The position numbers and the translations under genes are program-made. A stretch of 45,758 nucleotides of DNA from Oscillatoriales cyanobacterium. Lineage in GTDB: Bacteria > Cyanobacteriota > Cyanobacteriia > Cyanobacteriales > Microcoleaceae. Under the pieces are notes generated by a model. It saw only the letters and a program-made list of their open reading frames with translations, was not told the DNA's origin and did not search any database. The stretch covers positions 39,236-84,993 of the forward strand of contig RDYN01000036.1 in NCBI GenBank assembly GCA_004293365.1, in the 5' to 3' direction. This document shows positions 7,131 to 31,114 of this stretch, piece by piece; the first letter of the stretch is position 1, and the number at the start of each line of letters is the position of its first letter.

Positions 7131-7193
7131 AGGTGCGTATTGCGCACCCTACAGATAGAGTTTGTGCGCAATGCGCACCCTACAGATAGAGTT
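7131..7193. repeat. GTGCGCAATGCGCAC repeats
   Basis: A pair of short repeats containing GGTGCG(T)ATTGCGCACCCTA and GTGCGCAATGCGCACCCTAC, followed by the direct repeat CAGATAGAGTTTGT. The same palindromic family is expanded at 26440-26945. It lies between the nuclease-like gene and the small TPR gene. Confidence 0.75.
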
Positions 7194-26469: not shown

Positions 26470-26966
26470 ATTTGTATGGTGTGCACTGCGCACCGATTAT
26501 TTTACCACTTGACGCGCTACTTATATTCGGAAGGTGCGCATTGCGCACCCTACATACTTTGCACCAGACTTTTAAGCATTGCTCAGACCCGATTATAGGC
26601 AAGTGGATTGTGGTGTATTAGGATTTGTCGAAAGTAGTTGAATTTGTAGGGTGTGCACTGCGCACCGGTTGAATTTGTAGGGTGTACACTACATACTTTG
26701 CACCAGACTTTTAAGCATTGCTCAGACCCGATTATAGGCAAGTGGATTGTGGTGTATCAGGATTTGTCGAAAGTAGTTGAATTTGTAGGGTGTGCACTGC
26801 GCACCGGTTGAATTTGTAGGGTGTACACTGCGCACCGATTATTTTACCACTTTACGCGCTACTTATATTCGTAAAATGCGGATTGCGCACCCGACATAAT
26901 TACATATTCGGAAGGTGCGCATTGCGCACCCTACATACTTTGCACCTGACTTTTAAACATTGCTCA
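26384..26966. repeat. Three-copy tandem duplication with GTGCGCATTGCGCAC palindromes
   Basis: Three units begin at 26384, 26586 and 26725 with GACCCGATTA(C/T)AGGC, and end in ACTTTTAA(G/A)CATTGCTCA at 26585, 26724 and 26966. Each unit carries the 3' half of the small gene, TTGAATTTGTAGGGTGTGCA-type palindromes, and a copy of the last bases of the 26953-27873 gene. Units are 202, 139 and about 242 bp, so the inner copy is shortened. Confidence 0.8.
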
Positions 26967-27873
26967 TCTCTTTTCGCATTTCCAAGTACCGATAGAGATA
27001 TTCCGAAATTATGCCGTGCAAAAACAAGTCGCGCGCTGCATTAAACGGACTGTTTGGTGCTAGCGGGTGGCGGTTGACAATTACATGATTCCAGTCATGA
27101 TTTCCGATAATTTCACTGACGTACACTCCGAAGTTTTCGTCTAACTGAAGCGACAGCACGGCGCGCGCAAATTCATCGCTAGTTAAGCACAGAGAATAAA
27201 ATACTTTAAAAAGCTCGATCGCCGATTCTAAATCCAAAATCCTCAGCCACCTGCTTCTTTCAAAATCTATTGCAACTTCCACAGGTTGAATGCTATCATA
27301 ATTAATCCCCCGTTTTTTGACAAGCTGCAACCAGTTGGGATTTGTCAGTATGGCCTGGTTGTAGTCCCAGACAAAGTTATACAAAATTAAGTCGTGTTCG
27401 AGAAACGCATTGTCAGCTAAATCGCTAACAGTGCGCGGATAAAGTTTTGACTTTTCAATCTGGGTGTCCGGGCCGTTATCAATTAAGAAGTTGATAATGT
27501 TCGAGCCGATGCAGATGTGCCGCACAATTAAATAACAAGCTTCGGGCGAGACAAAGTTATTTAGGAAAAATGCAGCGGATTTGTGCATTAACGTGTAAGC
27601 GCGAAATTGAAACGGCAACAAACGCTTTGCTGTCATAATTACCGCCAGCAACAAGTTCGCAATTATTTTGATCGGGATGAGCAAATAACTGCGAGTCCAG
27701 TTTTGCAAATCCTTCATCATGTATGCTTTTGCTACTAAATCTACGGGAATCGAGCGATCGCAAAACAGGACATCCCAAACATTCGGATCTCGGCGGTTGT
27801 ACGGTTTGGTAGCGTAAGGGACTTTCTGCTCGTCGGGAAGAGTTTTGATATCTTGTTTTTGCAGCTTTTGCAT
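26953..27873 (-). CDS. Unrecognised protein coupled to the KAS III fusion gene
   Basis: A protein of about 306 residues from the ATG at 27873, which overlaps the stop of the upstream gene (TAATG), so translation is coupled. I do not recognise it with confidence. There is a hydrophobic stretch (YLLIPIKIIANLLLAVIMTA). His/Asp/Glu-rich blocks include AFLEHDLILYNFVWDYNQ and EIIGNHDWNHVIVNRHPLAP, which could hold a metal. It ends DLFLHGIISEYLYRYLEMRK. It may belong to an uncharacterised family (DUF6999 comes to mind, unverified). Its position makes it a likely partner of the ketoacyl synthase/metal-oxidase protein, perhaps membrane-associated. Confidence 0.6.
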   Translation of the reverse strand: MQKLQKQDIKTLPDEQKVPYATKPYNRRDPNVWDVLFCDRSIPVDLVAKAYMMKDLQNWTRSYLLIPIKIIANLLLAVIMTAKRLLPFQFRAYTLMHKSAAFFLNNFVSPEACYLIVRHICIGSNIINFLIDNGPDTQIEKSKLYPRTVSDLADNAFLEHDLILYNFVWDYNQAILTNPNWLQLVKKRGINYDSIQPVEVAIDFERSRWLRILDLESAIELFKVFYSLCLTSDEFARAVLSLQLDENFGVYVSEIIGNHDWNHVIVNRHPLAPNSPFNAARDLFLHGIISEYLYRYLEMRKEMSNV

Positions 27874-29741
27874 TAGCGGATTTCCTCCAATTGCAATAGA
27901 TATAAACGAGCAGTGACGCGGGCGGTTTTGACAATACGACGGGCGATGTCCTCTGTCATCCATTCTGCATTAATCAAATTTTCTAATTTGGCTAAATGCG
28001 ACTCGTCATTAGCTCCGTGATAAGCTAAAAATGATACTTGTTCGTCTTGCAAACCGAGAGTTTCTTTGATTTCTTTTGCCCACTTTCCCGCCAACCGATT
28101 TCCCAATCCTTCGATGATAAACATACTGCCAATTAAATCGACTGGATTTTCCCGCGATGCTTGGTGGAAGATAAAAGCTGACAGTGCTTCGCTGCCAATA
28201 TTCTTATCATATTCGACAATTTTTGACAACTCGCCTCCGACAGAAACATAATTTCGTTCTAACATTTGATAGTCGCGGTGTTCGTCTTGGGCGTGACCGA
28301 TAAAAGTCGATCGCAAACGGAAGTCAGTCATGTTAGATGCAGCCCGAGCAATCCAGCGCGCTCCCTCGACAACTTGCGGGCGGAGATTGCACAGCAAAGC
28401 TTGATAGTCTTCTATTGTAAACTCTCCCCGGTACAATTTGCGGACAATGGGTACGGAACGAATTTCGCGATCGAATCTCAGCCAAATCCAGGCTAACTCC
28501 CGCAACAAATAAGCTTGCGGAGAGTAAAACATTTCCGGTTTAACACTTTCTAGAGGCGAAGCTTCGGGAACATCAAGGGATTGAAAACTTTGAGAAGTCA
28601 TAGATTTATTAGTGTTTTCCACAACAGTTAACATCATGTATGCCGTTGTAAAGCGACCACTTTCCGGAACAAAACAAAATATTTTTTGTCCCGGCTGCAA
28701 TTTGCCAGAGTTGAACAATTCCTCTAACATTAAATAAATCGAGGCGCAGCCTGTATTTCCCCGACTGTACAAGTTAGTAAACCATTTTTCTTCGGGAATC
28801 ATGCAGCCTGCTTGTTCCAGAAGTTCGACAATTTGTCCCCGGAAAAAGTGAGAGGAATAGTGGCACAGCAGCCAGTCAATTTCCTGCGGACAAACTCTCC
28901 CATTTTTAATCAGGCTCAGCCAACCTTCAACGCCTAATTTCATTACATTGTCTAGCAAGCGAATATTTTGCCGCAAGTCAAAGGCTCCGGCTGTGGCTGC
29001 ATCGAGGTAGGATGAATAATCTAACCAGCTTTTTGTTGATGTTTCGCTGGCCAATCCTGAATACATACAAACTGGATAGGCGTTGGCGTGAGAAATTAGC
29101 TCAATCCATTCTATTTTTAAGCTAATTCCTGTTGCGTTGGGATGGTTTTGTAGCAAAAATGCTCCGGCGCCGTCGGATAGCATCCACCGCAGAAATTCTG
29201 TATCGAAAGGTAGGGGTTTTCCGGCTTGGACTGATGTTTCTGCTTCAAATTTACTATTTTTGAACAGGCGCGAGGGAAATTCGGAGGCGACGGCGATTGC
29301 TGTTTGTTTTTTGCCGAGTTCGAGTTGAGATGCGGCGTAATTTAAGGCGGTAACTCCTGCACAGCAAACTCCTTGAGTTGAAACTATTTCTAGGGGAGAT
29401 AATTCGGAAAGTTCCCCATGTACTGTGCTGGCAAATCCCGGTACTAATAAGTCTGGTAAAGTGGTGGCGCAGGCTAGTAAGTCGATCGCCCTTGGTTCCA
29501 AATTTGCAGAGGCGATCGCGTCCCGGACGGCAAAGGCTGCCATTTGGCTGTTAGAATACAGTGTTTGCTGCTGTTTGTCGATCGCGTAATAGCGCTGTTT
29601 AATCCCGTTGCTGTTGAGAATGCGCTGTCTGACTCTCGAAGGGCGATCGGCAATTTTGCCTAAATATTCCTCCATCTCATCATTATTAATCGCTTCCCCC
29701 GGCAAAAATTTTCCAATCCGATTGATATAAGCGCTGTGCAT
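27873..29741 (-). CDS. Ketoacyl-ACP synthase III fused to a heme-oxygenase-like metal-oxidase domain
   Basis: A 622-residue two-domain protein. Residues about 1-375 are a FabH/KAS III-like condensing enzyme with the full triad: Cys127 (GVCCAGVTAL), His294 (DWLLCHYSSH) and Asn329 (SRGNTGCAS). Residues about 405-590 are a helical domain of the iron-containing redox enzyme (heme-oxygenase-like) type. Glu544 (FIIEGLGNRL), His575, Asp579 and His582 (YHGANDESHLAKL) match the 4-then-3 spacing of family metal ligands. His488 (HAQDEHRDYQ) is a further candidate. The usual first-helix Glu is not obvious. The domains suggest acyl condensation, then oxidation or decarboxylation of the product in a small natural-product pathway (inference). 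No signal peptide. Coupled to the downstream gene. Confidence 0.8.
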   Translation of the reverse strand: MHSAYINRIGKFLPGEAINNDEMEEYLGKIADRPSRVRQRILNSNGIKQRYYAIDKQQQTLYSNSQMAAFAVRDAIASANLEPRAIDLLACATTLPDLLVPGFASTVHGELSELSPLEIVSTQGVCCAGVTALNYAASQLELGKKQTAIAVASEFPSRLFKNSKFEAETSVQAGKPLPFDTEFLRWMLSDGAGAFLLQNHPNATGISLKIEWIELISHANAYPVCMYSGLASETSTKSWLDYSSYLDAATAGAFDLRQNIRLLDNVMKLGVEGWLSLIKNGRVCPQEIDWLLCHYSSHFFRGQIVELLEQAGCMIPEEKWFTNLYSRGNTGCASIYLMLEELFNSGKLQPGQKIFCFVPESGRFTTAYMMLTVVENTNKSMTSQSFQSLDVPEASPLESVKPEMFYSPQAYLLRELAWIWLRFDREIRSVPIVRKLYRGEFTIEDYQALLCNLRPQVVEGARWIARAASNMTDFRLRSTFIGHAQDEHRDYQMLERNYVSVGGELSKIVEYDKNIGSEALSAFIFHQASRENPVDLIGSMFIIEGLGNRLAGKWAKEIKETLGLQDEQVSFLAYHGANDESHLAKLENLINAEWMTEDIARRIVKTARVTARLYLLQLEEIR

Positions 29742-30094: not shown

Positions 30095-31114
30095 ATGGAT
30101 ATTGCTTCACTAGATGCTTGGTATTCTCAATCTCAGCGCCGCGCCGCTGTTTCGCTATTGATGAAACGAGTAGGCGTCACTCGCACTAGGGCTGAATGCT
30201 TTGTCAGGCTTTGGATTTACTTATCAGTGAAACAGCTTCAGGAAAGCCAGCCCCGCCTCAAACCACCGCTGGCTAAACTGGAATTGCTAGCAACAGAAGT
30301 GCAGTGCACTCACCGGGAAGCAGCAGAACTATTTTACTCGGATTCCGATCGCGGGAGCGATCGCGCCGCCGGAATGATGTTAGATAAACTAGAAGCACTC
30401 GGATTGATCGAAAAACACTTTGACGGAAACGCTACAGCAATTCAAATTCAACCCATCCCAGAAATTTTAGATCCCCGCAAGCCCGAAAATTCAGTCAAAC
30501 TCAAATTAGATGATTTTAACCCTCGGTGCGATGCAATTCCGGTAGCAAATTTACTAGCAACCAATTATAACTGGATGAACCGCAGCACTAACGCAGTTCC
30601 CTACCAAATTGCTAAAATTCTGCGGGTTTTGGCTGGCAAATATTCAAAAGGAATGGGAGTTTTGCGCCGCTGCGACAACCTAAATCCTGTCGGCTTTTTC
30701 TTACTGTATCCCACCGCAGCCGAATCAGAAGTTAATTTTTTTAACGCACCGAGTAAAAGCCTGCACTTAAGTTCTGTTTCTGCTGAGATCGATCCTTTTA
30801 CAATGGCACTTCCGGGAGATGAAAATTGCCAGTCAGTATTTGTCCGCAGTTGGATGATTGACCGGCAATATTTAGAAGAATACCGCATTGTTTTTCTCGA
30901 ACACATACAGCAAGTTTTAGTTGAAATGAAAAAAGATTTTCCGAATCTTTGCGATTTGTACACGCTAATGATTCACCCGATGTACGAAAAAATGAGCTTA
31001 GCTTTGGGGTTTCAAAAGACTAATAGTGACGCTCAGCTATCTCTTTATTGGATGTATTTAGCGTTGGATAGATTTTTGGCGCTGGATATCAAGGAAGCGC
31101 TAAAAAATTTGTGA
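30095..31114 (+). CDS. Conserved-looking hypothetical protein, 339 residues
   Basis: A soluble protein that I cannot assign to a named family. Residues about 15-110 are helical and resemble a winged-helix arrangement (LATEVQCTHREAAELFYSDS, then LDKLEALGLIEKHF). The rest is a mixed alpha/beta domain (VGFFLLYPTAAESEVNFFNA, RSWMIDRQYLEEYRIVFLEH) ending LYTLMIHPMYEKMSLALGFQ. That last block recalls the end of GNAT acetyltransferases, a weak resemblance. There are no membrane helices. It is divergent from the KAS III fusion gene. The open frame is long and has cyanobacterial codon use, so it is surely coding. Confidence 0.7.
   Translation: MDIASLDAWYSQSQRRAAVSLLMKRVGVTRTRAECFVRLWIYLSVKQLQESQPRLKPPLAKLELLATEVQCTHREAAELFYSDSDRGSDRAAGMMLDKLEALGLIEKHFDGNATAIQIQPIPEILDPRKPENSVKLKLDDFNPRCDAIPVANLLATNYNWMNRSTNAVPYQIAKILRVLAGKYSKGMGVLRRCDNLNPVGFFLLYPTAAESEVNFFNAPSKSLHLSSVSAEIDPFTMALPGDENCQSVFVRSWMIDRQYLEEYRIVFLEHIQQVLVEMKKDFPNLCDLYTLMIHPMYEKMSLALGFQKTNSDAQLSLYWMYLALDRFLALDIKEALKNL

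Follow-up and report, generated by a model that had tools for sequence, protein, structure and literature searches.

A cyanobacterial fusion of a StlD/DarB-like ketosynthase with a heme-oxygenase-like domain, and its DUF6999 partner: a candidate cassette for oxidised acyl-derived rings

Introduction

Biosynthesis of dialkylresorcinols relies on DarB as the cyclase and on DarA as the aromatase (PMC3949708). Heterologous expression of a Chitinophaga gene pair with consecutive locus numbers yields a dialkylresorcinol (PMC3992019), and darA mutants of Pseudomonas chlororaphis give no product (PMC6403133). DarA and DarB homologues also occur in cyanobacterial dialkylresorcinol clusters, for example those of the bartolosides, where the DarB-type ketosynthase is fed from fatty-acid metabolism (PMC8406957, PMC7081238). 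The subject of the present work is a gene pair found in a stretch of 45,758 nucleotides (the window) of contig RDYN01000036.1, from an Oscillatoriales cyanobacterium. With the bartoloside-type clusters it shares a DarB-type ketosynthase, which would likewise be fed from fatty-acid metabolism. Where those clusters pair DarB with DarA, by contrast, a heme-oxygenase-like domain fused to the ketosynthase and a protein of the DUF6999 family (PF22523) are found. The gene pair is a recurrent cassette, real and under selection rather than artefactual, with predicted functions in acyl condensation and oxidation. We propose tentatively what it may make.

The heme-oxygenase-like domain has described relatives of its own, UndA, CADD, SznF and BesC (PF14518). 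Most heme-oxygenase-like dimetal oxidases (HDOs) have three histidines and three carboxylates as ligands, and about a quarter have an extra carboxylate (PMC13108848). The motif E-H-X-H-D/E-H is present in about 85% of 150 HDO groups (PMC11363339). Three histidines with three or four carboxylates, or the set of FlcD, are the ligand sets described in the available parts of these two sources. Among open-licence papers, our literature search found none on a fusion of a ketosynthase with a heme-oxygenase-like domain and none naming DUF6999, which does not prove absence. The parts are known; their combination, the predicted ligand set of the oxidase and the partner appear not to be described in the literature found.

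A recurrent and selected gene pair

A preliminary description of the window had announced one protein of 622 residues, joining a beta-ketoacyl-acyl carrier protein synthase III (KAS III) to a heme-oxygenase-like domain, and a next gene overlapping it. Pfam and NCBIfam matches bear out the fusion: Pfam recognizes PF08541 at residues 283-356 (43 bits) and PF14518 at residues 493-614 (35.9 bits, above the gathering cut-off of 28.9). The overlap is there too. The junction reads CGCTAATGCA on the minus strand, and the A of the partner's ATG is also the last base of the fusion's TAA stop. The partner is a nearly full-length member of DUF6999 (353.2 bits for a cut-off of 27; residues 26-300, on positions 2-274 of the 275 of the profile).

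Conservation of this partner beside the fusion across cyanobacteria, which had been put forward as a check, is indeed observed. In a class-wide scan of 388 cyanobacterial genomes, DUF6999 was present in 59, the ketosynthase in 59 and both in 56 (Fisher p 5e-60, kinship being ignored). A phylum-wide scan of 291 genomes, a sample that overlaps with the former, gave DUF6999 in 7 and the ketosynthase query (E 1e-40) in 9; its DUF6999 match in genome G119 (E 7.9e-4) is likely due to chance. The gap between the two matches could be measured in 52 genomes, leaving out G389 and three genomes with the parts on different contigs (G414, G497, G570): it is at most 300 bp in 48, between 643 and 794 bp in G058, G399 and G457, and 3448 bp in G433. 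Three genomes have the ketosynthase without DUF6999: G097, and G074 and G091, whose ketosynthases lack the oxidase domain and are 40-42% identical. When DUF6999 was used as the query, 14 of 14 named records had the fusion directly upstream. The oxidase domain, finally, is also present in 54 of the 56 pair genomes, the exceptions being G389 and G497, the latter a contig-end fragment.

Could the two genes be mere neighbours without a shared function, kept together by a cyanobacterial habit of synteny? The Microcoleus-type loci do share a largely syntenic neighbourhood, and three genomes (G376, G500, G526), each with a partial DUF6999 match, have no ketosynthase match. Yet the pair persists in the other genera compared, where its surroundings change (except that two Kamptonema-type loci match each other and that two isolated gene pairs recur); gene order is the same in Pseudoalteromonas; 56 shared out of 59 and 59 in 388 genomes is far from what this view expects; and the sole broken-fusion genome, G097, a relative of the same genus with an incomplete fusion match and two stops, has no DUF6999 match. 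Such an explanation is very improbable. The fusion and DUF6999 form a real unit.

Both domains of the fusion and DUF6999 are under selection. Eight of the 14 named relatives, picked for equal length (six were unused), gave ratios of replacement to silent substitution rates (dN/dS) that are low in all three parts: the ketosynthase has 0.077-0.113, the oxidase domain 0.015-0.079 and DUF6999 0.082-0.141. In the linker the ratio was 0.33-1.43 for seven of the eight, locus L002 having no replacement change there.

The three parts also exist as separate genes. On a plasmid of Pseudoalteromonas sp. THAF3, three consecutive genes encode a ketosynthase (54% identical), an oxidase (50%), annotated as 'iron-containing redox enzyme family protein', and DUF6999 (33%). 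In the three genomes read of a cyanobacterial genus, g184, the three genes are again separate and stand in that same order. The fused forms group in a tree of 26 ketosynthases (support 89/93, below the starred level), while the separate-gene forms sit on long branches of uncertain placement, which indicate no order of fusion and fission. Two hypothetical proteins flank the Pseudoalteromonas set (L042, 11439-11996 and 14643-16547); a kinase-TPR protein and AnmK follow the three genes in the one g184 genome scanned with Pfam.

The ketosynthase domain resembles StlD and DarB

Among NCBIfam models the best for the fusion is the StlD/DarB family beta-ketosynthase, NF005293 (E 1.4e-133, full length). 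A sequence search of the PDB places StlD (5gk0) first, with E 3.9e-88, and beyond two StlD sequences the next match falls to E 1.6e-14. The structural model agrees: 5gk0 and 5gk2, both StlD, are its top fold matches, and all matches shown fall on the ketosynthase. Generic FabH models score far lower than the StlD/DarB and DarB models. With StlD of Photorhabdus and with DarB the domain shares the ketosynthase fold and the Cys-His-Asn triad. This triad (Cys127, His294, Asn329) had been described as intact; all three residues are there, without any variation in 121 of 121 fusions, a set made of the window protein and the 120 matches listed of 6184, hence of close relatives. The fusions also share the SE motif with StlD, as well as its HGEL motif, whose Glu is kept in 114 of the 121 and is Ala in the other 7. 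What differs from StlD and DarB is that here a heme-oxygenase-like domain is joined to the ketosynthase or comes after it, that no DarA-like protein was found with the ketosynthase, and that the latter remains under the NCBIfam cut-offs.

The preliminary description had expected an acyl-derived metabolite, which is still the likeliest output. Its example of a terminal alkene fares less well: because the ketosynthase is closest to StlD/DarB, a dialkyl ring (cyclohexanedione or resorcinol) is the better indicated product. The alkene would come back into play if the ketosynthase, like OleA or PpyS, joined two acyl groups into a product with an open chain or a pyrone-like form, which the oxidase then cleaved or decarboxylated in the manner of UndA, making an alkene, a ketone or a shortened acyl chain. 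This is unlikely: the domain is 40% identical to StlD against about 20% to OleA or FabH, and the flavodoxin-like aromatase candidate discussed below, not found with the oxidase-linked type, favours a replaced ring oxidation.

A heme-oxygenase-like domain with a changed candidate metal site

Residues 408-622 are all-helical in the structure model. Against the PDB, a profile made from 26 oxidase domains finds entry 3dde (E 7.1e-10, profile positions 72-200), and the domain shares with UndA, CADD, SznF and BesC this profile match, the PF14518 match and a Glu...Glu...His-x3-Asp-x2-His pattern. It is unlike them in being C-terminal to a ketosynthase and in having Asp490 at the helix-1 His. As had been noticed from the letters, Glu544, His575, Asp579 and His582 match the spacing of oxidase ligands. 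All 121 fusions, and all 4 oxidase proteins encoded by genes of their own, have these four residues without exception. The four align with Glu, His, Asp and His of 3dde, and they reproduce the helix-2 Glu and the helix-3 His-x3-Asp-x2-His of HDOs of the three-His, three-carboxylate kind.

The remaining ligands should lie on helix 1, where the preliminary description saw no obvious Glu and suspected unusual metal binding. The Glu is probably Glu487, equally invariant (121/121 and 4/4) and aligned with Glu84 of the 3dde chain sequence; the helix-1 Glu run of a CADD homologue from the same genome falls at this place too, in a weak alignment. The unusual position exists, but it is that of the His. 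Instead of the helix-1 Glu and His of the three-His, three-carboxylate enzymes, Asp490 is aligned with His87 of 3dde, and the usual His seems to be replaced by this aspartate, unless His483 or His488 takes over, all three being invariant in the 121 fusions. Residue 459 is acidic throughout (Glu in 112, Asp in 9). For these assignments the ligand numbering of UndA and CADD served as a guide. The CADD homologue just mentioned (L033, on contig C82 of the window's genome, G000) is a CADD-family p-aminobenzoate synthase homologue in its own right, with 288 bits for TIGR04305 and E 1.1e-45 for PDB 1rcw.

A domain with such a site might be no oxidase, and either remain metal-free like PqqC or TenA or be an appendage, structural or for acyl transfer, by which the ketosynthase and DUF6999 are positioned. 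Loss of the canonical helix-1 His is consistent with this, as is the fact that about 9% of the 150 HDO groups have no predictable metal motif (PMC11363339); confidence of the model within the domain is lowest at residues 461-490 (56-65). The invariance of Glu487, Glu544, His575, Asp579 and His582 in fused and separate proteins alike, and the low dN/dS of the domain, argue against it and make it quite improbable.

DUF6999, a helical partner

In an alignment of 244 DUF6999 proteins (121 cyanobacterial-like, 120 proteobacterial-like, 3 from g184), Arg61, Arg118, His119, Asn133, His160, Asp161, Asp214, Asp245, Asn267, His286, Gly287 and Glu291 are invariant. The AlphaFold model (predicted local distance difference test, pLDDT, 84; predicted template modelling score, pTM, 0.84) is nearly all helix, with a strongly hydrophobic helix at 65-85, and a fold search with it gave no significant match. 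Because of these invariant polar residues, the helical model, the hydrophobic helix and the lack of a fold match, DUF6999 is likely to be an enzyme or a binding protein, possibly associated with the membrane, whose core is polar and perhaps binds metal. The pattern of His119, His160-Asp161, Asp214, Asp245, His286 and Glu291 suggests that DUF6999 itself has a site for metal or for hydrolysis. Relatives (120 listed of 798) bear names that include Vibrio, Rheinheimera, Halomonas and Endozoicomonas, and Caulobacter vibrioides, taken as a control, also carries a DUF6999 protein. The cassette occurs in many cyanobacteria and, split into its single genes, in Pseudoalteromonas (at least one strain); the occurrence of DUF6999 among gammaproteobacteria hints that its range is wider.

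Several oxidase-free relatives have a candidate DarA-like neighbour

In G074 and G091 a 311-residue protein adjoins the oxidase-free DarB-like gene. Its resemblance to flavodoxins is weak (PF12682, E 0.059 and 0.008), and it is 32% identical (E 2e-47) to the product of the gene after the DarB-like gene on a Streptomyces plasmid; two further Streptomyces plasmids have the same flavodoxin-like neighbour beside a DarB-like gene. We infer that this neighbour is a DarA relative, and it accompanies five of the eight oxidase-free DarB-like genes seen. The loci of G074 and G091 (L050, L051) may represent a cyanobacterial cluster for glycosylated dialkylresorcinols: besides the DarB-like gene and the flavodoxin-like protein, L050 holds a glycosyltransferase, a DevB/DevC exporter and an SBBP-repeat protein.

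The situation is different with the oxidase-linked type. The DarA-like alignment A6 used here has three rows only and an inferred DarA identity, and could miss a distant DarA. None of the 57 genomes of this type searched with it (those 56 that have the pair, G000 included, and G097) matched, whereas G074 and G091 each did. Neither beside the ketosynthase nor elsewhere in the genome of the window did this search find the DarA that defines a darAB cluster, and there is no DarA-like protein in the 25.8 kb read of the Pseudoalteromonas plasmid. As the DarA-like neighbour stands beside several oxidase-free genes and was not found with the oxidase-linked type, it is proposed that the oxidase domain takes over the oxidation of the ring.

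It might instead hydroxylate or otherwise tailor the formed ring, or a thioester-bound acyl chain, without aromatization, which could leave the ring as a cyclohexanedione or turn it into a quinol. The chemistry of HDOs is varied (PMC13108848), and with Asp490 instead of the helix-1 His the ligand set is changed, which makes a changed reaction plausible. By itself this does not account for the DarA-like protein not found in 57 genomes, and we regard it as an unlikely alternative to ring oxidation.

A proposed pathway

The proposal that we favour, and hold tentatively, is a compact pathway in which the ketosynthase forms a dialkyl ring, the oxidase domain oxidizes it in place of a DarA-type aromatase and DUF6999 acts as the partner of both. 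Drawing on fatty-acid intermediates, the ketosynthase domain would join and cyclize two acyl thioesters as StlD and DarB do, giving a 2,5-dialkyl-1,3-cyclohexanedione or a close relative. The heme-oxygenase-like domain, with its predicted two-metal site, would then oxidize this ring with O2 (the simplest reaction being a dehydrogenation to the resorcinol), standing in for the flavodoxin-like aromatase, as the pattern of exclusion suggests. Fusion would pass the intermediate between the two active sites. DUF6999, the near-obligate partner, may be a further enzyme acting on the product or a handler at the membrane side. A bolder version, which we think doubtful, would see here an undescribed way of making dialkyl aromatic rings, or rings oxidized differently, with O2: the ketosynthase makes the ring, a covalently attached dimetal oxidase with a so far undescribed site of two histidines and four carboxylates replaces the flavin aromatase, and DUF6999 is an enzyme of new fold.

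Several observations weigh against the proposed ring oxidation. The score of the ketosynthase narrowly misses the curated cut-off of NF005293 (445.6 for 450), making it StlD/DarB-like and not a filed member, and stays well under that of the DarB model NF053539 (396.8 for 550), so that its product may differ; the oxidase-free DarB-like protein of L050 is likewise under the latter (506.2 for 550). Substitution of the helix-1 His could mean weak metal binding, or none. In the available parts of the HDO review (PMC13108848), no HDO that aromatizes a cyclohexanedione is described. G389 keeps the ketosynthase and DUF6999, and no oxidase domain was detected there. The exclusion test has its own limits: its cyanobacterial side is made of two oxidase-free genomes of one genus, and the DarA-like identity is drawn from position and a weak flavodoxin match, with no hit to a named family. 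Moreover, plasmids of Prevotella, Bacteroides and Phocaeicola (L044, L106, L107) carry oxidase-free DarB-like genes with no DarA-like neighbour in 13-17 kb, and a missing DarA need not, therefore, mean a replaced DarA.

Layout and surroundings of the pair

Coordinates in the window are collected in Table 1.

Table 1. Features of the fusion gene and of its partner, in window positions
Feature	Position	Strand	Basis or remark
Fusion gene, StlD/DarB-type ketosynthase and heme-oxygenase-like (PF14518) domain, 622 aa	27873..29741	minus	
Ketosynthase domain, residues 1-374	28620..29741	minus	NF005293 match 4-374; StlD alignment 3-374
Ketosynthase triad codon, Cys127	29361-29363	minus	
Ketosynthase triad codon, His294	28860-28862	minus	
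Ketosynthase triad codon, Asn329	28755-28757	minus	
Linker, residues 375-407	28521..28619	minus	Low model confidence; loose dN/dS; length varies among relatives
Heme-oxygenase-like domain, residues 408-622	27876..28520	minus	PF14518 493-614; 3dde profile match; conservation
Candidate ligand, Glu487	28281-28283	minus	
Candidate ligand, Asp490	28272-28274	minus	
Candidate ligand, Glu544	28110-28112	minus	
Candidate ligand, His575	28017-28019	minus	
Candidate ligand, Asp579	28005-28007	minus	
Candidate ligand, His582	27996-27998	minus	
DUF6999 (PF22523) partner, 306 aa	26953..27873	minus	ATG overlaps fusion stop by one base

Upstream of the fusion, on the plus strand (30095-31114), the window encodes a 339-residue protein that has the same place in 12 Microcoleus-type loci and for which neither Pfam nor NCBIfam gives a match at E <=1. 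This divergent gene and the downstream msrA were considered as partners and rejected, as among the loci compared they adjoin the pair only in those of Microcoleus type. A palindrome like GGTGCGCANTGCGCACC, reminiscent of REP elements, has eight copies with at most two mismatches (26478-26930 and 7132-7179), where shuffling predicts 0.01; six of the eight are downstream of DUF6999.

A few loci are built differently. In G389 (L115, 4297-6650) a 394-residue ketosynthase without an oxidase-domain match adjoins DUF6999. In G394 (L114, 5819-8942) the fusion gene is interrupted, soon after the region of the active-site Asn, by about 1.1 kb that show a weak UPF0236 match (E 9e-4, under the cut-off) and no Rfam match. 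In G433 (L113, 4583-10816) four genes of lipid type stand on the same strand between the fusion and DUF6999: a CDP-alcohol phosphatidyltransferase (PF01066), a CdsA-like (PF01148), a PlsC-like (PF01553) and a Methyltransf_20 gene (PF12147). A link with phospholipids was dropped: PF12147 is found in 48 of the 388 genomes, and of its 29 strong matches (E 1e-38 or better) only that of G433 goes with DUF6999.

Implications

Putting together DUF6999, a family of undescribed function, and a fusion that databases name 'beta-ketoacyl-ACP synthase III' gives one testable pathway. Its changed oxidase site offers a test of how far the heme-oxygenase-like fold tolerates the loss of a His ligand. Dialkylresorcinols are a signal in Photorhabdus asymbiotica (PMC4578411), and by analogy the product of the cassette could be a signal as well. 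If the proposal is true, cyanobacteria would complete the kind of ring made by their DarA/DarB clusters in a second way as well, one that depends on oxygen.

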